Below are positions 4,613 to 20,004 of a DNA stretch of 20,025 nt, in pieces (positions within the stretch are counted from its first letter, which is position 1; every line of letters begins with the position of its first letter). The notes under the pieces are model-generated. The model searched no databases. It saw nothing but the letters and a program-made list of their open reading frames with translations, and was not told the origin of the DNA. The translations under genes and the position numbers were made by a program. Where the stretch lies: positions 1 to 20,025 of IMG/VR virus record IMGVR_UViG_3300046519_000194. One strand, written 5' to 3'. Origin of the DNA: a virus.

Positions 4613-5893
4613 CTATGGTTTGTCGTGGAAAGTGCTGTAAGCCGCGTCATCCGTGGGCTGTACAGGAATCAGCGAAACTTCGCGTAATGGCTCGGCAATG
4701 GTGTGGATAGCCGCAAACCCGCGAGCATCAAGCCAGCCGTGCCACTTCTCCAGGGCATCACGCTTGCCTGCCTCAACCCATGAATGGATGTACGTCTTCA
4801 CGTTCTGGCCCATGGTGTGATTGATCAGCAGCTCACCAATCAGGAAGTCGACGCCCAAGTCCACCCAGGCTGTACGGGCGACCTTGCGCAGGTCGTGACT
4901 GGTCCATTCGCCTTGGCCCAACCGAGTGAACACGGCACAGGCCTGCGTATCGCTCAGCGGCTTGCCAGTCTTGCCGGGGAACAGATAGACGCCGCTGTAG
5001 CCGGTGGCGGCCTGGGCAGCGTGGTAGCGTTTGAGCAGCGCGCACACCTGCTCGGTGAGCGGCAGGGTCAGCTCGGCGCGGGTCTTCGTGTGACTGGCCG
5101 GGATGAACCACTGACGATCCTCGAAACTGAAGTCGCGCCACGATGCCAAACGTGTCTCCCCAACTCTTGTGCCGTGGCACAGCATCATCAGGGCCAGCAT
5201 GGCGTCACCGGGCGCAGATGCGAACCGCTCGCCCAAGTCTGCCAGCACGCCTTCGACCTGCACGTCACGCAGCCGGGCGGCCTTGGGCTTGATCTTGACC
5301 TTGGAGAAGTCCCCGAAGCGGATGGCGTTCATGGGGTTTTCGTTGACGTGGCCCAGGCGTGCTGCCTGCTTGAATGCCAGCACCAGCAGCCGGAATATCA
5401 GGCGCAAGTACTCGAGCGAAAGCTCAGCCTGCAGAGGCCACATCAGGCGCTGATCGATCTCCGACTTGCTGACCTTGGCGATCGGCAAGTCATCCAGGCG
5501 CGGCCGCAGGTGCTTGGTCATCACCGATCGTGCCGTTGATTTGCGCTTGTCGGACAGGTTGCGGTCACGACCCATTCTGTCGTCGAACCATGCCAGCAGC
5601 TGGCCAACGGTCTGCCAGGTGCCCACGGCTACGCCGGCCTCGGGGTCACCGGCAAGCCGCAGGCGGATCTGGGGGAGCACTGCCAGCACGTTCTTGGTAG
5701 GCAGGTCAGGGAAATTGGCGATCTTGTGCCAGGTGCTGCCCAGCACCAGGTACCACGACGCGCGATTGCGGTCCTGTTTGAAGCGCAGGCGCAGCGCGGG
5801 CTGGCGTGCATCGCGCAGGTCGCGAACATTCGGGTTGTCGACGTGGCGGCGAATCTCCGCGTCAGACAGGTTCACGGTCAATGTCTTGCTCAT
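4613..5893 (-). CDS. Second tyrosine recombinase, inside the lytic early operon
   Basis: Complete tyrosine recombinase of 426 residues, beginning MSKTLTVNLSDAEIRRHVDN. The N-terminal third probably binds arm-type DNA, and residues of about 95-195 form the SAM-like core-binding domain. The catalytic set looks intact: R243 (HGTRVGE), K270 (SHTKTR), H333 and R336 (SHDLRK), H359 (LINHTMG) and the nucleophile Y368 (VKTYIHS). The ATG overlaps the VRR-NUC gene stop (ATGA) and AGGG lies upstream, so it is translated with the lytic early genes. It is distinct from the terminal integrase at 18801-19910 and no tRNA or attachment-like site adjoins it. It could resolve multimers, act on another site or be a remnant of a module exchange. 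Confidence 0.9.
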   Translation of the reverse strand: MSKTLTVNLSDAEIRRHVDNPNVRDLRDARQPALRLRFKQDRNRASWYLVLGSTWHKIANFPDLPTKNVLAVLPQIRLRLAGDPEAGVAVGTWQTVGQLLAWFDDRMGRDRNLSDKRKSTARSVMTKHLRPRLDDLPIAKVSKSEIDQRLMWPLQAELSLEYLRLIFRLLVLAFKQAARLGHVNENPMNAIRFGDFSKVKIKPKAARLRDVQVEGVLADLGERFASAPGDAMLALMMLCHGTRVGETRLASWRDFSFEDRQWFIPASHTKTRAELTLPLTEQVCALLKRYHAAQAATGYSGVYLFPGKTGKPLSDTQACAVFTRLGQGEWTSHDLRKVARTAWVDLGVDFLIGELLINHTMGQNVKTYIHSWVEAGKRDALEKWHGWLDARGFAAIHTIAEPLREVSLIPVQPTDDAAYSTFHDKP

Positions 5894-6321
5894 GCCGCAA
5901 CCCTCGTGCGGGGCTGGAGCAGGTAAGCCCGTAGGCACTCCAGCGCATCGATGTGACCGCGGCAAACCACCGCGAGATAGCCTTGGTCGATCAGCGCCTG
6001 AATGTAAGCGTCCTGACTGGCCGACACGTCGGCGTCGAACGGCGGCATGGCCTTGAACTCGATGTACAGGCCGAAGTGCCCGCCGCGCGCCATTGGCAGG
6101 ACCAGGTCCGGCACGCCGGCTTTCACACCCTGACCTTTCAGCTTCGCCGCCACGGCCTTGTGACGGTGTCCGCCGTTGGGCACGTGGTAGATCAGCTTGA
6201 ACGCCTCGGGATACCGCAGCCCGACCTCGCGCATCAGGGCGGCCTGCTCCTGGCTTTCGCGGTCCACTGGCTTGGTACGTTGGGCGCGCGGGCCGAAGGC
6301 TTTCATAGTTGCCGGTTTCAT
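5890..6321 (-). CDS. VRR-NUC domain nuclease
   Basis: Predicted PD-(D/E)XK nuclease of the VRR-NUC family, associated with DNA repair and recombination junction processing. The 143-residue protein carries ESQEQAALM (about residues 22-30), VPNGGHRHK (about 47-55), the acidic motif GVKAGVPDLVLP (about 65-76) and the catalytic IEFKA (about 87-91). A C-terminal helix, GHIDALECLRAYL, follows, as is usual. The ATG overlaps the upstream stop (ATGA) and GGAGG sits about seven bases before it. It is directly coupled to the downstream tyrosine recombinase, suggesting that both act on replicating phage DNA. Confidence 0.9.
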   Translation of the reverse strand: MKPATMKAFGPRAQRTKPVDRESQEQAALMREVGLRYPEAFKLIYHVPNGGHRHKAVAAKLKGQGVKAGVPDLVLPMARGGHFGLYIEFKAMPPFDADVSASQDAYIQALIDQGYLAVVCRGHIDALECLRAYLLQPRTRVAA

Positions 6322-10175: not shown

Positions 10176-10406
10176 TCAGCCGTTGGCGACTTGCTCGACC
10201 GGGTACAGGTCGGGCCTCAACTCAAACCTTGTTACCTGGCCATCAACGGCCTTCTCCAGCGGTATTACTAGATCTGCTGGGACGCGCTGATTGCGGTGAA
10301 TGCACTGCCAGATACGTGGCTGACTGGTGTGACACCGACGAGCCAATTCGGCTTGGCTGCCCGCCAATCGAAGCACCTTATCGATCGGTCTTTCTTTTTT
10401 CGGCAT
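10176..10406 (-). CDS. Cro-like repressor, YdaS family
   Basis: Small DNA-binding protein that would oppose CI at the shared operators. The 76-residue product has the helix-turn-helix SQAELARRCHTSQPRIWQCI (about residues 17-36), followed by RNQRVPADLVIPLEKAVDGQ and the tail FELRPDLYP. This is the pattern of YdaS/Cro-type regulators. It starts at 10406 with GAGG about nine bases upstream and is the first gene of the leftward early operon. It diverges from CI over a 104-base operator region. The protein family is clear; the Cro role is inferred from position. Confidence 0.87.
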   Translation of the reverse strand: MPKKERPIDKVLRLAGSQAELARRCHTSQPRIWQCIHRNQRVPADLVIPLEKAVDGQVTRFELRPDLYPVEQVANG

Positions 10407-10435: not shown

Positions 10436-10498
10436 ATGATAACTCAAGTTATGAAAACTACAAACACATGTTATTTGAAGAGGTATAACGCGTGTTTT
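10436..10498. promoter_or_regulatory. Divergent cro/cI operator region with three repeated sites
   Basis: Three 14-bp sites resembling ATAAC-N4-GTTAT lie at 10439-10452 (perfect), 10461-10474 (8 of 10 fixed bases) and 10485-10498 (9 of 10), spaced 22 and 24 bases centre to centre like lambda OR1-OR3. A minus-strand -10 TATCAT (10441-10436) with a poor -35 (TTGTAG) would serve cro and overlaps the first site. A plus-strand -10 TATAAC (10484-10489) would serve cI and overlaps the third. Confidence 0.68.
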
Positions 10499-10510
10499 AC
10501 CCTTGCAGGC

Positions 10511-11179
10511 ATGACGAAACCTCAAGAACTACTGAAGGACCGCATCTTTCAGCGGCGCACGCAGCTGGAAATGAGCCAGCAAGCTCTGGCCGAAAAAGCG
10601 GGCGTGAGCCAGGTGACAATCCAGCACCTCGAGAGCGGCAGGAACTCGACCTCTAAAAAACTGGTGGAGATAGCGCGCGCACTGAACGTCTCGGCTGAAT
10701 GGCTAGCCAATGGCGGGGATGATCTTGGCCGGGCGCGCGAGGAGCGGGCGAACGTCGCCATGATTGACCAGCCCAACATGATGTTCAGATACCCGGTAAT
10801 TTCTTGGGTCGCGGCAGGCGCTTGGTCTGAAGCAGTTGAGCCCTTCCCGCCCGGGTTCTCAGATCGCTACGAAATGTCCGAGTACGATTCGAAAGGCCCG
10901 GCGTTCTGGCTTGAAGTTAAGGGTGATTCCATGACCTCAAGCGGCGGGCAAAGCATTCCTGAGGGGACTTTTATCCTGGTCGACACCGAGGCTCATGTGC
11001 AGCCAGGTAAGCTGGTGATAGCGAAGCTTGCGGACAGCAACGAAGCCACCTTCAAGAAGCTGGTTGAGGATGGTGGTCGTCAATTTTTGAAGCCTTTGAA
11101 TCAGGCCTATCCAATCCAGATGTGTGCAGATGGTTGTCGCATTGTAGGTGTTGTGGTCAGAGCCCTGACTAAGCTGTAG
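10511..11179 (+). CDS. cI: CI-type prophage repressor with S24 autocleavage domain
   Basis: Maintains lysogeny by binding operators at both early promoters, and is inactivated by RecA-stimulated self-cleavage. The 222-residue protein has a helix-turn-helix (about residues 21-41, MSQQALAEKAGVSQVTIQHL), a linker and an S24 peptidase-like domain. The cleavage site is Ala102-Gly103 (WVAAGAW), the catalytic Ser is S140 (KGDSM) and the Lys is K182 (TFKKLVEDGG). The following segment, FLKPLNQAYPI, is close to that of lambda CI. The start at 10511 follows a short leader and has only a weak ribosome site, like some repressors read from a maintenance promoter. A terminator follows. Confidence 0.95.
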   Translation: MTKPQELLKDRIFQRRTQLEMSQQALAEKAGVSQVTIQHLESGRNSTSKKLVEIARALNVSAEWLANGGDDLGRAREERANVAMIDQPNMMFRYPVISWVAAGAWSEAVEPFPPGFSDRYEMSEYDSKGPAFWLEVKGDSMTSSGGQSIPEGTFILVDTEAHVQPGKLVIAKLADSNEATFKKLVEDGGRQFLKPLNQAYPIQMCADGCRIVGVVVRALTKL

Positions 11180-11197
11180 CACGAAAATCCGCAGAAC

Positions 11198-11224
11198 AGG
11201 CCCGCCACCGAGCGGGCTTTTTTT
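11198..11224 (+). terminator. Rho-independent terminator after cI
   Basis: GCCCGC (11200-11205) pairs with GCGGGC (11212-11217) around a six-base loop, and seven T follow (11218-11224). It lies 19 bases after the cI stop and isolates the maintenance transcript from the DUF1654 gene. Confidence 0.88.
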
Positions 11225-11311
11225 CGCCCGAACCATTCCGCCTGCTTCAAAACCTTACTCATCGTCAGAAGCATCGTACGCCGGGCTTGCGAATTTCCTA
11301 CATCATTAATA

Positions 11312-11327
11312 CTGTATGCATATACAG
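11312..11327. promoter_or_regulatory. LexA (SOS) box upstream of the DUF1654 gene
   Basis: CTGTATGCATATACAG is a near-perfect palindrome fitting CTGT-N8-ACAG with the AT-rich centre preferred by LexA. It lies 21 bases before the DUF1654 start codon, overlapping any promoter there, with GGAGG (11338-11342) just after it. DNA-damage induction of the downstream gene is a direct prediction. Confidence 0.8.
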
Positions 11328-11348
11328 CAGTAGAAATGGAGGTTCACA

Positions 11349-11600
11349 ATGCTTCACCAGCCGGATTTCACCCAGACCAAGCCGCGTACTTATGAGCAGA
11401 TTGGCCATCGCGTTCAGAAAATGATCAACGACCCAAAGGTGCAGAAGCGACAGTTCATCGTCGTCGCCAGGCTGCCGAACGAAAGCCCCTCCGACTGGCA
11501 CCGGTTTCTGAGCGAAATCGCTGAGACGGTCGGCATAAGGGTCGACGAGGTTGAGGGCGATGGGGTCAGAATCGGCTGGCAGGAATACTGCGAAAGCTAA
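11349..11600 (+). CDS. DUF1654 domain protein, predicted SOS-regulated
   Basis: Function unknown; 83 residues. The sequence matches the DUF1654 pattern: TYEQIGHRVQKMINDPKVQK (about residues 14-33), a strand QFIVVARLP, SPSDWHRFLSEIAET (about 46-60) and the closing VRIGWQEY. DUF1654 proteins are known from Pseudomonas chromosomes and prophages. A strong ribosome site GGAGG precedes the ATG by about six bases and a LexA box covers the promoter region. It sits between cI and the rightward early promoter, where lambda carries rex genes, and is probably expressed separately from both. Confidence 0.87.
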   Translation: MLHQPDFTQTKPRTYEQIGHRVQKMINDPKVQKRQFIVVARLPNESPSDWHRFLSEIAETVGIRVDEVEGDGVRIGWQEYCES

Positions 11601-11628
11601 TCGTCCGCCCACCAACGCAACCAAATAA

Positions 11629-11690
11629 ATAACGTAGGTTATTGACAGGACCAAAACATGAGTTATGATCTAACCCATAACTTAGGTTAT
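11629..11690 (+). promoter_or_regulatory. Rightward early promoter bracketed by two repressor operators
   Basis: TTGACA (11642-11647) and TATGAT (11664-11669), 16 bases apart, make a strong promoter reading right. Perfect copies of ATAAC-N4-GTTAT lie at 11629-11642, touching the -35, and at 11677-11690, over the expected start. The same motif occurs at the cro/cI operators. This corresponds to lambda pL/OL: CI would repress the whole right arm from here. Confidence 0.8.
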
Positions 11691-11699
11691 CAGGACAAA

Positions 11700-11828
11700 G
11701 CCGGGCAATCGCCGGCTACCAAGATCAGGGGGAAGCCTGATCCCAGCCCCCGACAAGGGGATCGACTGGCTCAGAAATGAGAGCTCTTTTGGAAAGCATC
11801 ACTGAAGCGCCTGGTAAAACGGGCGCTT
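11700..11828 (+). promoter_or_regulatory. Structured early leader with boxA-like and boxB-like elements
   Basis: The leader RNA can form hairpins at 11700-11716, 11723-11742 (GATCAGG/CCTGATC, perfect), 11748-11760 (CCCC-GACAA-GGGG, a pentaloop like that of P22 boxB) and 11805-11828 (9-bp stem with one G-U pair, loop GTAAAA). GCTCTTTT at 11783-11790 resembles boxA. A terminator follows the first gene, so an antitermination (nut- or put-like) site is a reasonable reading. Confidence 0.45.
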
Positions 11829-11855: not shown

Positions 11856-12239
11856 ATGGAAAACGTGATCGTTAGCGGCGCATGGAAGGGCCACCTCGGC
11901 CAAGGCCTTGCGCCAAGGGAGCTCCAATGCGTGCTTTCGGTTGCACAGGGAATGACCGCTAAAGAGATAGCCCGGCTGTTCGGTGTAACGCCTGGAACAA
12001 TTGGCAAGCGCATCGAGAACGCCATGTACAAGCTGGGCGTGCACCGCCGGGCCGCGCTGGTGGCCGAGGCCATGCGCCGGCAGATCATATCGCCCATGTG
12101 CTTCGTGCTGGCCGCTCTGATCGCCATGCATGCGGTGATCGACGACCAATCAATGCGCCGTGACCGCCGCGCGCCGGATCGCCGTACCGCCCAGGTGCGG
12201 GTGGTGCGCAAGGCAGAGAGCTTCGAATACCACGCTTGA
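11856..12239 (+). CDS. LuxR-type HTH protein with membrane segment and Arg-rich tail
   Basis: First gene of the rightward early operon, 127 residues. Residues of about 19-73 form a LuxR/GerE helix-turn-helix (LAPRELQCVLSVAQGMTAKE, IARLFGVTPGTIGKRIENAM, YKLGVHRRAALVAEA). A hydrophobic stretch at about 78-95 (ISPMCFVLAALIAMHAVI) could be a membrane helix. An arginine-rich tail follows (about 100-119, with MRRDRRAPDRRTAQ). No receiver or ligand domain is present. The ribosome site is weak (GAG about 10 bases upstream). It probably regulates phage or host genes. Its position and basic tail make an RNA-binding or antitermination role conceivable but unproven. Confidence 0.78.
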   Translation: MENVIVSGAWKGHLGQGLAPRELQCVLSVAQGMTAKEIARLFGVTPGTIGKRIENAMYKLGVHRRAALVAEAMRRQIISPMCFVLAALIAMHAVIDDQSMRRDRRAPDRRTAQVRVVRKAESFEYHA

Positions 12240-12285: not shown

Positions 12286-12384
12286 GTGAACTTCAGCTAC
12301 CGGCCCCGCCACATGCGGCGCCGCTCAACGCGTGACATATGGCGGCATATCAAACGCGGAAGCCCGGGAGACCGGGCTTTTTAA
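12286..12384 (+). CDS. Possible 32-residue arginine-rich peptide overlapping a terminator
   Basis: A GTG start at 12286, preceded by GGGAGG (12270-12275), opens a frame of 32 residues that begins NFSYRPRHMRRRSTRDIWRH after the initiator and ends GSPGDRAF. It is strongly basic, with nine arginines. Its last eight codons run through the terminator at 12361-12382 and its TAA lies at the end of the T-run. This layout suits a leader peptide controlling read-through, or an RNA-binding peptide, but a chance frame cannot be excluded. Start codon and ribosome spacing are only fair. Confidence 0.35.
   Translation: MNFSYRPRHMRRRSTRDIWRHIKRGSPGDRAF
12361..12382 (+). terminator. Rho-independent terminator inside the rightward early operon
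   Basis: AGCCCGG (12361-12367) pairs perfectly with CCGGGCT (12372-12378) around GAGA, and T residues run from 12378 to 12382. It lies between the first gene and the rest of the arm, like lambda tL1, and implies that expression of genes such as xis and int needs read-through or another promoter. Confidence 0.85.
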
Positions 12385-14524: not shown

Positions 14525-16354
14525 ATGTCCGTTCACCAGAAAAAACACCCTCTCGACTTTAAAACCCAGTATGGCCTTGGCTTCGACCCGATTGACGATG
14601 AGATCGTGGTGGATTTTTTCTGTGGCGGGGGCGGCGCCGGTACCGGCCTGGAAATGGGCCTGGGCCGCGCAGTGACGGTGGCCAAGAACCACAACCCGGC
14701 GGCGATCAGCATGCACACCGCCAACCACCCCGCGGCGCGCCACTTCACCACTGATGTATTCGATGGAGACCCCGACGAGGAATGCGGCGGGCGCGCCGTC
14801 GGCTGGTTTCACATGAGCCCCGACTGCACCCACCACAGCCAGGCGGCCGGAGGGCAGCCGCGCAAGCGCGAGATCCGCAACTTGTCATGGATCGGCCTAA
14901 AGTGGGCCGGCAAGAAGCGGCCCCGCGTCATCAGCCTGGAGAACGTGAAGCAGATACTGCAGTGGGGCCCGCTGATCGCCAAGCGCGACAAGGCCACCGG
15001 GCGAGTGATGAAACTGGATGGCCAAGTCGCGGCCCCAGGCGAGGTTGTGCCCGTGCACCAGCAGTTCCTGGTGCCGAATCCCAAACGCCGCGGCACCACT
15101 TGGCGCCGGTTCATCGCGCTGCTGGAAGGCATGGGCTACGCCGTCGAATGGCGTGTGATCAAGGCGTGCGACTTCGGCGCGCCCACCAGCCGCGAGCGGC
15201 TGTTCATGATCGCCCGGTGCGACGGTCAACCCATCGTGTGGCCAGAGGCAACCCATGCGCGACAACCCGCCAAGGGCCAGCAGAAGTGGCGCACAGCCGC
15301 CGACTGCATCGATTGGTCGGTGCCGAGCAAAAGCATCTTCGGCCGTAAGAAGGACCTGGCGCCAGCCACGCTGCGCCGGGTCGCAAAGGGCATGAAAAAG
15401 TTCGTCATCGACAGCGCCAGCCCTTTCATCGTGCCGATCGCGAACTGGTCCGGCACCCTAGCTCAGTCTGCCCATGAGCCGCTGCGCACCGTGACGGCCT
15501 GGCCCCGGGGCGGATCTTTCGCCATGGCGAGCCCTATCATCGCGCCAGCCACCCATCAGGGCAGCGACCGGGTCAACGATCCACGCGAACCGCTGCCTAC
15601 AGTGACGTGCGCCAACCGCGGCGAGCTGACGCTGATCAGCCCTACCCTGATCCAGACCGGTTATGGCGAGCGCGAAGGCCAGCAGCCCCGCGTGCCGGGT
15701 CTCGATCAGCCGCTTGGCACCGTCGTCGCAGGCGGCACCAAGCACGCTTTGGTCACCGCATTCATGGCCCAGATGAATGGAGGCTTCAACACCACCGATG
15801 CCAAGCCGCTGAACGAGCCCATGACCACGGTCACCAACACGGGCAGCCAGCAGCAGCTGGTGAGCGCCAGCCTGGCCACGCTGCGCAAGCACTGCATCGG
15901 GCGCGCAATGGATGAACCGGTGCCGACGATGACCGCCGGCGCCGAACACCATGCCCTGGTCGAATACACGCTGTCGCCCGAGCATGAAGAAGGCGCCCTG
16001 CGCGTTGCTGCGTTCCTGATCAGCTACTACGGCACCGAGAACATGAGCGGTTGCGAGCAGCCGGCGCCGACCATCACCACCAAGGACCGCCTGGGCCTGG
16101 TAACCGTGATCGTCAAAGGCACCCCGTACGTGATCGTCGACATCTGCCTGCGGATGCTGCAGCCGCATGAGCTGTACCGGGCCCAAGGCTTCCCCGCCGA
16201 CTACATCATCGACAAGGGAGCTGACGGGCGAAAGTTCACGAAGACCGAGCAGGTGCACATGTGCGGCAACAGCGTCAGCCCGCCGCCGATGGCAGCGCTG
16301 GCCCGAGCGAATGATCCGTGGCGCGTGGCCGCGCGTGAGGCGGTGGCCGCATGA
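14525..16354 (+). CDS. C5-cytosine DNA methyltransferase with repeat-rich target region
   Basis: Predicted DNA cytosine-5 methyltransferase, 609 residues, probably protecting phage DNA from host restriction. Motif I is VVDFFCGGGGAGTG (about residues 28-40). The catalytic Cys is C101, in SPDCTHHSQ, where PDC replaces the usual PC pair. ENV is at about 139-141, the motif VIII-like FGAPTSRERLF at about 217-227, and the C-terminal GNSVSPP at about 581-587. The long target-recognition region holds six EPLPTVT-like repeats (about 318, 355, 395, 431, 464 and 512). Start at 14525 follows GAGG by about eight bases. No partner restriction enzyme is visible, so it is a solitary methylase. Confidence 0.93.
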   Translation: MSVHQKKHPLDFKTQYGLGFDPIDDEIVVDFFCGGGGAGTGLEMGLGRAVTVAKNHNPAAISMHTANHPAARHFTTDVFDGDPDEECGGRAVGWFHMSPDCTHHSQAAGGQPRKREIRNLSWIGLKWAGKKRPRVISLENVKQILQWGPLIAKRDKATGRVMKLDGQVAAPGEVVPVHQQFLVPNPKRRGTTWRRFIALLEGMGYAVEWRVIKACDFGAPTSRERLFMIARCDGQPIVWPEATHARQPAKGQQKWRTAADCIDWSVPSKSIFGRKKDLAPATLRRVAKGMKKFVIDSASPFIVPIANWSGTLAQSAHEPLRTVTAWPRGGSFAMASPIIAPATHQGSDRVNDPREPLPTVTCANRGELTLISPTLIQTGYGEREGQQPRVPGLDQPLGTVVAGGTKHALVTAFMAQMNGGFNTTDAKPLNEPMTTVTNTGSQQQLVSASLATLRKHCIGRAMDEPVPTMTAGAEHHALVEYTLSPEHEEGALRVAAFLISYYGTENMSGCEQPAPTITTKDRLGLVTVIVKGTPYVIVDICLRMLQPHELYRAQGFPADYIIDKGADGRKFTKTEQVHMCGNSVSPPPMAALARANDPWRVAAREAVAA

Positions 16355-18594: not shown

Positions 18595-18915
18595 ATGTCC
18601 CTGATTTCCGTAGAGCAAGCGGCGACGGTGCTTGGCGTCAGCCGCGCCACCGCATACCGCATGGCCCGAGACCGCCTGATACCCACCGTGCGCATGCTCA
18701 AGCGCGGGGTCAGGATTCATGCCGAGAAGCTGCAAGAGATGATTGACGCCGAAGCCGCTGCTAGTATCCCTGGTGCGGGCGGCGTTCAGGAGGAAACTGA
18801 ATGCCCTACAAAAGAGAGGATTCGCCATTTTGGTGGATCTGCATCACCCAGCCAGATGGAAAAAGAACTCGACGCTCTTCTGGCACTGCCGACTACGCGG
18901 CGGCGAAAGCAGTAG
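18595..18915 (+). CDS. xis: Excisionase-like HTH protein
   Basis: Probable directionality factor for the adjacent integrase. The 106-residue protein opens with a MerR/excisionase-type helix-turn-helix: MSLISVEQAATVLGVSRATA (residues 1-20), YRMARDRLIPTVRMLKRGVR (21-40) and IHAEKLQEMID. The remainder is a low-complexity, charged tail. GGAG lies about six bases before 18595; an ATG at 18583 in the same frame lacks a better site. The last 115 bases overlap the integrase gene in another frame, so the tail is constrained by int coding. The Xis role is inferred from domain and position. Confidence 0.78.
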   Translation: MSLISVEQAATVLGVSRATAYRMARDRLIPTVRMLKRGVRIHAEKLQEMIDAEAAASIPGAGGVQEETECPTKERIRHFGGSASPSQMEKELDALLALPTTRRRKQ

Positions 18916-19910
18916 AGCAACAGGCCCGGGCGAACGCCTGGAAGGAAAAAGAATGGGGCGTGAATCCGCCCCGATCGTTCAACGAGGTGATGCTTCCGTA
19001 TCTGCGCCACGCCAGCCAGCACCAGCGCAGCTACGAAACCACAACTCAAAGGGTAAAAGCTTTACGCGCCTATTTTACAGGCGTGGTGATGAATGACCTG
19101 TCCGGTCAACAGATACGAGAATACACCAGCAATCGATTGGATGCAGGCGTCTCGGCATCCACGGTTAACCGGGAGCTTGCCGCATTGTCCGCGGCGATCA
19201 ACTGGTGCAACGTGGAATACGAGTGGGCCCTGCCCAACCCTGTGAAGGGTCGGACGATGCGAGAGCCTGAAGGGCGGGTGCGCTGGTTGACCCGCGCCGA
19301 GGTGGAATCGCTGTGCCGCGCAGCGCGCGCGCAAAAGTTTGGGATGGTGCTCGAGTGCTTCATCCGCCTTGCGGTGAACACTGGATGTCGCAAGGAAGAG
19401 ATGCTGGGCCTGGAATGGCGCCGCGTCGACCTGGTAAATGGCCTGCTGTACCTGGAGGGCCAGCACACCAAGACGAACAAGCGCCGAAGCATCCCGCTCA
19501 ACGAAGGGGCGATGGCGGCAATCAAGACGCTGATGGCCTATCGGGCAGAAGTGGCGCCCGCATCGCCCTGGGTGTTCATGCGAGGGGATGGCGAGCGGGT
19601 GCTGTGCATCAGGACGGGTTTCAAGAAGGCTTGCAAAACGGCGGGGATAAAGGACTTCGTTCCTCACGATCTGCGACACACCTGTGCGGCGCATCTGATC
19701 AGTGCCGGCGTTGCGCTGGCGGAAGTCAGGGATTTACTTGGGCACTCGACGATCATGATGACCGAGCGCTATGCGCATTTGGCGCCGGCGCGAGTGCGGG
19801 ATGCGGTGAAAGTGTTGGACGGGTTGCGTGAACAGGGTTGTTCACGTTTTGGTCACGCTGAAAGTCCAGCGGGTCAAGGGGGAGCGCTGTTAAAGCTCGT
19901 AACCCCTTGA
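18801..19910 (+). CDS. int: Prophage integrase (tyrosine recombinase)
   Basis: Site-specific recombinase that inserts the phage at the tRNA-Leu gene, 369 residues. An N-terminal arm-binding domain (about 1-55, with YKREDSPFWWICITQPDGKR) is followed by a core-binding domain (about 60-150) and the catalytic domain. All catalytic residues are present: R197 (NTGCRKEE), K224 (HTKTNKRRS), H289 and R292 (PHDLRHT), H315 (LLGHST) and Y324 (TERYAH). AGGAGG precedes the ATG, which lies inside xis. The stop is 9 bases from the tRNA 3' end, the usual layout for this integrase type. Confidence 0.96.
   Translation: MPYKREDSPFWWICITQPDGKRTRRSSGTADYAAAKAVEQQARANAWKEKEWGVNPPRSFNEVMLPYLRHASQHQRSYETTTQRVKALRAYFTGVVMNDLSGQQIREYTSNRLDAGVSASTVNRELAALSAAINWCNVEYEWALPNPVKGRTMREPEGRVRWLTRAEVESLCRAARAQKFGMVLECFIRLAVNTGCRKEEMLGLEWRRVDLVNGLLYLEGQHTKTNKRRSIPLNEGAMAAIKTLMAYRAEVAPASPWVFMRGDGERVLCIRTGFKKACKTAGIKDFVPHDLRHTCAAHLISAGVALAEVRDLLGHSTIMMTERYAHLAPARVRDAVKVLDGLREQGCSRFGHAESPAGQGGALLKLVTP
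19874..19910 (+). terminator. Inverted repeat over the int stop codon, possible terminator
   Basis: TCAAGGGG (19874-19881) pairs perfectly with CCCCTTGA (19903-19910), enclosing a second pair, GAGC/GCTC (19882-19885 and 19895-19898). Only a short T-run follows. It may terminate int transcription before it meets the convergent tRNA gene, or be part of the attachment region. The repeat includes the int stop codon. Confidence 0.4.
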
Positions 19911-19919
19911 TTTAGAAGA

Positions 19920-19965
19920 TGGTGCGGACGAAGAGACTCGAACTCTTACAGCTTGCGCCGCTGGA
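19920..19965. other. attR: Probable right attachment site in the tRNA-Leu 3' half
   Basis: The integrase gene ends 9 bases from the tRNA 3' end, and phages of this type recombine within the T-arm, variable arm or anticodon region of the target tRNA, carrying an identical 3' end. The exact core cannot be fixed without the left copy, which lies outside the window. The bounds given are the likely range. Confidence 0.6.
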
Positions 19966-20004
19966 ACCTAAATCCAGTGTGTCTACCAATTTCACCACGT
20001 CCGC
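19920..20004 (-). tRNA. tRNA-Leu, anticodon UAG
   Basis: The minus strand folds as a complete class II tRNA. Acceptor arms GCGGACG and CGTCCGC pair fully, followed by discriminator A and an encoded CCA at 19922-19920. The anticodon stem CTGGA/TCCAG holds the loop TTTAGGT, giving anticodon TAG. The long variable arm, CGGCGCAAGC, is as expected for leucine tRNA. The T arm is AAGAG-TTCGAGT-CTCTT. The 5' part is host sequence; the 3' part is probably shared with the phage attachment site. Confidence 0.95.

Follow-up and report, generated by a model that had tools for sequence, protein, structure and literature searches.

The window analysed here, a complete IMG/VR virus record of 20,025 bases, contains a cI repressor gene (10511–11179, plus strand; 222 aa, HTH_3 and Peptidase_S24) and, on the minus strand, a cro-like gene (10176–10406; 76 aa, YdaS/Cro-type HTH) that opens the rightward (lytic) operon. 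The CI protein gives a full-length match to the lambda repressor 3bdn (2e-32, residues 12–217), and the cro-like protein matches Pfam YdaS (1.1e-17), the phrog_35 transcriptional repressors (8.6e-17) and, weakly, solved Cro proteins. Four of the features by which a lambdoid switch is recognised are found together: a CI with an N-terminal HTH and a C-terminal S24 self-cleavage domain, a cro-like gene divergent from cI and directly across the operators from it, three operators separating the two genes, and a further set of operators of the same motif at pL.

Operators and promoters of the two arms

Six sites of the type ATAAC-N4-GTTAT lie in the window as two triplets, three per arm, none of them assigned a strand. 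Between cro and cI are OR1 (10439–10452, ATAACTCAAGTTAT, perfect), OR2 (10461–10474, CAAACACATGTTAT, two mismatches) and OR3 (10485–10498, ATAACGCGTGTTTT, one mismatch), spaced 22 and 24 bp apart; around pL are OL3 (11629–11642, ATAACGTAGGTTAT, perfect), OL2 (11653–11666, AAAACATGAGTTAT, one mismatch) and OL1 (11677–11690, ATAACTTAGGTTAT, perfect), spaced 24 and 24 bp apart. The first-pass annotation had listed five operator copies, with the sites at 10439, 11629 and 11677 perfect and near-copies at 10485 and 10461, and all of these coordinates, spacings and mismatch assignments are correct. It overlooked the sixth copy, 11653–11666, which lies exactly 24 bp from both of its neighbours, and there are therefore three sites per arm.

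The pL promoter, TTGACA-16-TATGAT (11642–11669, plus strand; TTGACA 11642–11647, TATGAT 11664–11669), agrees with the consensus at 11 of 12 positions, is conserved in relatives, and was the single consensus promoter found in the region by a promoter scan. This is the strong promoter that had been described as bracketed by two sites; it is flanked as proposed, and a third site covers it as well, with OL3 touching the −35 box, OL2 over the spacer and −10, and OL1 at the expected start site. The pR and pRM promoters gave no match in the consensus scan; they are weak matches whose placement we infer from geometry and conserved blocks. The putative pR core (10436–10463, minus strand; TTGTAG 10463–10458, 16 nt, TATCAT 10441–10436), placed by eye and by the lambda geometry, overlaps OR1, its −10 hexamer TATCAT lying inside and beside that site, and the ATGATAAC adjoining OR1 is conserved in relatives. 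The putative pRM core (10475–10503, plus strand; TTGAAG 10475–10480, 17 nt, TACCCT 10498–10503) was placed by geometry, and both of its hexamers fall in conserved blocks of the OR alignment; its transcript would start at or near the A of the cI ATG, by analogy with lambda. Measured from that A to the operator centres, the distances are 19.5, 43.5 and 65.5 bp, as against 19, 42 and 66 bp in the lambda record NC_001416. An intrinsic terminator follows cI at 11198–11224 (plus strand).

The pL operon begins with a gene for a sigma-70 region 4/GerE-type HTH protein (11856–12239, plus strand; Pfam, phrog_3282) and also contains a C-5 cytosine DNA methyltransferase gene (14525–16354, plus strand). 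No N homologue was recognised in this operon, no cII gene was noticed among the pL-side genes scanned, and no pRE was identified. One tyrosine-recombinase gene (4613–5965, minus strand) lies in the pR (lytic) operon, and a second (18801–19910, plus strand) adjoins, at the right end, a tRNA (19923–20004, minus strand) that is the likely attachment site.

Co-inheritance of the motif and the repressor helix

With up to two mismatches allowed, the motif matches seven times in the window; 100 shuffled sequences had 1.67 matches on average and never more than 5. The seventh match, at 12384, is a solitary site with two mismatches. When palindromes of the form 5-N(0–10)-5 were enumerated in the window with no motif fixed beforehand, ATAAC-N4-GTTAT proved the sole one with three perfect copies inside 1.3 kb, and some such cluster of three arose in 5 of 200 simulated sequences. 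By themselves, then, the perfect sites have a modest shuffle significance that is suggestive, and the comparative tests are much stronger and decisive.

For these comparisons, 80 viral loci were fetched by CI similarity. All 25 CI relatives with the recognition helix SQVTIQHLE carry perfect sites, and none of the 55 with other helices carries the ATAAC motif, giving a helix-by-motif table of 25/0/0/55. The OR triplet is found again at −72, −50 and −26 from the cI start across 42 non-redundant loci (OR1 at −72 in 41 of the 42, if the 2-bp offset of locus L023 is allowed), and the OL triplet recurs at 24/24 bp wherever the DNA reaches far enough. In these relatives the two mismatches of OR2 persist, as CAAACACATGTTAT or a close variant, as does the single mismatch of OR3, indicating that both are maintained as weak sites and are not decayed copies. 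Throughout the group, OR2 and OR3 also have in common a T immediately preceding the GTT half (..TGTT); it is missing from OR1 in nearly the whole group and from most OL sites, and may mark a preference of Cro. One locus, L142, was considered as a counterexample and set aside; it has lost OR1, retains a damaged OR2 and showed no cro upstream, and was read as a decayed prophage. With OR3, cI and the OL triplet still present, it provides a natural decay series of the switch. Because the compared loci share ancestry, their counts do not represent independent events, and the domain swaps and group replacements described below are the stronger evidence.

The alternative that these palindromes arose by chance or composition, as accidental products of AT-rich islands in a GC-rich phage, could draw on the simulated windows just mentioned, 5 of 200 of which held a triple-palindrome cluster of some kind. 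It is refuted by conservation, as dozens of relatives keep the positions, half-sites and mismatches while the flanking bases vary, and the motif follows one CI helix without exception across the 80 CI-anchored loci; we regard it as having a negligible probability.

A reverse scan, using DNA only and no protein, searched viral and bacterial collections for pairs of perfect sites separated by 48 bp and returned 50 viral and 19 bacterial contigs. A matching or diverged-matching CI is present in 42 of the 50 viral contigs: the SQVTIQHLE CI was found within the fetched locus in 33 and elsewhere in the record in 6 more, and in 3 the sites stand beside a cI of their own with a diverged helix (SQVTINH, SQVTIAH and TQVMIHK). 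The remaining eight were rejected as members of the same system, five being records with no CI-like match and three having a weak HTH match and a different repeat. In four loci (L087, L099, L132 and L152) ATAACCGC.GTTAT and ATAACAAATGTTAT recur at a distance of 48 bp from each other, next to a gene that is weakly CI-like; the element also occurs in Rhodopseudomonas and is probably a separate repressor system. Among the bacterial hits, the CI helix is as expected in all six Pseudomonas genomes and in none of the 13 others, so that the bacterial genomes carrying the same switch are Pseudomonas. A scan of host genomes found the motif at background frequency only and not equally frequent in host DNA: it occurs 0–9 times in each of 199 Pseudomonas genomes, no more often than a reversed control, and in the six lysogens 17 of the 20 perfect sites genome-wide lie in the immunity region.

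Loci whose CI has a different helix were searched de novo for palindromes, one helix type at a time. Five further helices are each associated with a 5-N4-5 palindrome other than ATAAC-N4-GTTAT, at much the same spacing: EQPVIS with ATAAG-N4-CTTAT (20 of 20 loci), TQTSIS and DQASIS (which have SISDLE in common) both with ATGGG-N4-CCCAT, ANSAVTQW with TTCAG-N4-CTGAA, and SKATITFW with TTTAG-N4-CTAAA, the small helix groups comprising 2–4 loci and being weaker evidence. Most of these palindromes stand at near-identical positions before cI, and many of the loci have OL-like pairs kilobases downstream. For the QAASHYL helix, represented by one pair of loci, the search gave no clear motif. The recognition helix of Cro is TSQPRIWQC throughout the ATAAC group and is different in the other groups, and in some members of the ATAAC group (L089, L158, L102 and others) the CI C-terminal domain falls to about 20% identity while the operators stay the same. 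The exchange of C-terminal domains over constant operators, taken together with the covarying Cro helix, defines a specificity module composed of the Cro HTH, the operators and the CI HTH, which on this sequence evidence appears independent of the CI oligomerisation domain. The co-inheritance of motif, CI HTH and Cro HTH is thus directly observed, as are the sites themselves, their positions, their conservation and their lambda-like geometry.

Two proposals of the first-pass annotation, that one repressor controls both arms and that the motif predicts the immunity group, survived these helix and motif comparisons, including the reciprocal DNA-only scan, the finding of other motifs in other CI groups and the low host background. 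When the immunity region was searched against a collection of named phages, only relatives of the C-terminal part of CI matched, and the CI HTH alone reached at best about 50% identity at full coverage; accordingly, no isolated phage of the ATAAC group was found in that collection. No description of the ATAAC-N4-GTTAT operator specificity was found in the open papers searched. The operator code can be read from sequence and covers five or more repressor specificities of Pseudomonas-type prophages, which makes homoimmunity and heteroimmunity predictable for unisolated metagenome phages and testable with simple reporters.

The DUF1654 gene and the pL leader RNA

Between the arms lies a DUF1654 gene (11349–11600, plus strand; 83 aa, PF07867, 1.4e-21), and 37 bp upstream of it is a LexA-like SOS box, CTGTATGCATATACAG, recognised by its sequence (11312–11327, no strand assigned). 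Of 90 distinct DUF1654 ORFs in the fetched related loci, 73 are preceded by such a box at a distance of 30–37 bp, and loci with a very short cI–OL gap have neither the gene nor the box. This recurrence makes SOS control of DUF1654 a strong prediction; how the protein might act on the switch is a guess. Its fold was predicted with a pLDDT of 84.6 and has no decisive structural relative, the best Foldseek match (E 0.13) and the best VIA match (Z 7.1, the DNA-binding part of CtsR) being too weak to identify it. No link between DUF1654 and LexA control was found in the literature searched. A longer form of the protein (about 105 aa; L167:3836-4153, L192:3776-4081, L208:3662-3979 and others) often has an acidic tail ending in -APF, and tails such as EEPAPF and DEIAPF recall the C-terminal tip of SSB, which recruits DNA repair proteins.

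The pL leader contains a 74-nt structured RNA element (11696–11769, plus strand), identified by fold, covariation and a covariance model. The segment 11676–11856 has a fold z-score of −4.9, and 5 of the 7 pairs of the second hairpin show two-sided changes that preserve pairing among 30 sequences; the invariance of the third stem is no evidence, because its sequence was in the search pattern. The copy in the window scores 72.5 bits with the covariance model. The model detects one copy per locus, located on the pL side; the phages concerned have at least four different CI types, and 7 of 149 Pseudomonas genomes also give a match. The pattern scan for the RNA matched at least 120 viral contigs, and further copies lie at L046:5824-5895, L128:7954-8025 and elsewhere. 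The RNA has no Rfam family, the sub-threshold Rfam matches to a snoRNA and to isrK being judged to be chance, and it has no blastn match in the named-phage collection. On its 3′ side is a boxA-like GCTCTTTT (GCTCTTT; 11783–11790, plus strand), and in many relatives that lack the RNA the same leader carries a boxA-like CGCTCTTTA. The natural reading of the sequence is that the leader RNA and boxA together form a candidate nut- or put-like antitermination signal.

These two elements are less ordinary than the switch itself, and we flag the conserved pL leader RNA and the SOS-box DUF1654 gene family for function. It is possible, if on the whole doubtful, that they are two undescribed layers of control. 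The leader RNA with its boxA, swapped between phages of different immunity, might be a cis-acting new class of processive antiterminator replacing the lambda-type N/nut system, and the LexA-controlled DUF1654 protein might feed a second SOS signal into the switch, for instance through interference with CI or with the OR–OL complex.

A lambda-type switch with its own specificity

We are confident that the locus is a bipartite immunity region of the lambda type, with an operator specificity of its own, in which CI would read ATAAC-N4-GTTAT on both arms. As a switch it is an ordinary one of the lambda type; the operator specificity is the new part. From the observations above we infer binding, cooperativity, pRM activation, the action of Cro, looping and the immunity phenotype, as follows. 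CI dimers would bind the palindromes, and in the lysogen pairs of dimers at OR1–OR2 would silence pR (cro, antirepressor and replication genes) and pairs at OL1–OL2 would silence pL (the early genes through to excisionase and integrase). CI at OR2, with its centre 43.5 bp before the cI start (42 bp in lambda), would contact polymerase at pRM and so sustain its own synthesis, and dependence of this weak central site on a cooperative neighbour would make the switch steep. OR3, occupied by CI at high dose or by Cro early in lysis, would turn pRM off, and DNA damage would lead to CI self-cleavage via the S24 domain. Lysogens of one helix/operator group would exclude each other and be blind to other groups.

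Looping between OR and OL is plausible by analogy with lambda, which uses the third site of each arm for loop-assisted repression of pRM. The OR2–OL2 separation among relatives ranges from 783 to 2833 bp, so that neither its length nor its phase is fixed, and whole genes come and go in the spacer; as each arm is also complete alone, CI could repress pR and pL independently through the local triplets, with no looping and merely a common motif. Set against such independence are the conservation of the third site of each arm (OR3 and OL3) in the loci read and the ability of lambda to loop across 2.36 kb, a distance taken from the lambda record, and we give the independent arms somewhat less than an even chance. 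A different question is which protein reads the sites. The palindromes could be bound mainly by the Cro-like protein or another regulator, with the CI sites elsewhere, and the Cro recognition helix is indeed tied to the motif as strictly as the CI helix, with the ..TGTT of OR2 and OR3, missing from OR1 in nearly the whole group, as a possible mark of Cro. However, no further repeated palindrome was found in the cro–cI gap or around pL, and where the HTH of CI has been swapped the motif is swapped with it, in roughly the same positions, as if CI reads the motifs too, which leaves this possibility very improbable.

Among known systems, lambda is the most similar in architecture: both have divergent cro and cI genes with three operators between them at near-identical distances to the cI start, three further operators at pL, genes between cI and pL, and an S24-type CI. 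The present region differs from lambda in having 14-bp ATAAC-N4-GTTAT operators in place of 17-bp ones, a YdaS-type Cro, arms 1.2 kb apart as compared with 2.36 kb, a DUF1654 gene with a LexA-like box at the position of rexAB, and no recognised N or cII. The operators of phage 434 are also 14 bp long, the CI HTH domain matches the 434 and P22 (c2) repressor structures, and P22-like c2 genes are about 50% identical to CI over the first 68 residues; the half-site and the recognition helix differ from those of 434 and P22, and the C-terminal domain of CI is lambda-like here. In the cluster A mycobacteriophages, repressor and stoperator motif diverge together and define immunity relations (PMC6550527), and the same joint divergence of binding motif and repressor is seen here. 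The cluster A stoperators number 20–30 sites across the genome, most of which block elongation (PMC6550527); in contrast to such scattered sites, the sites here form two promoter-associated triplets.
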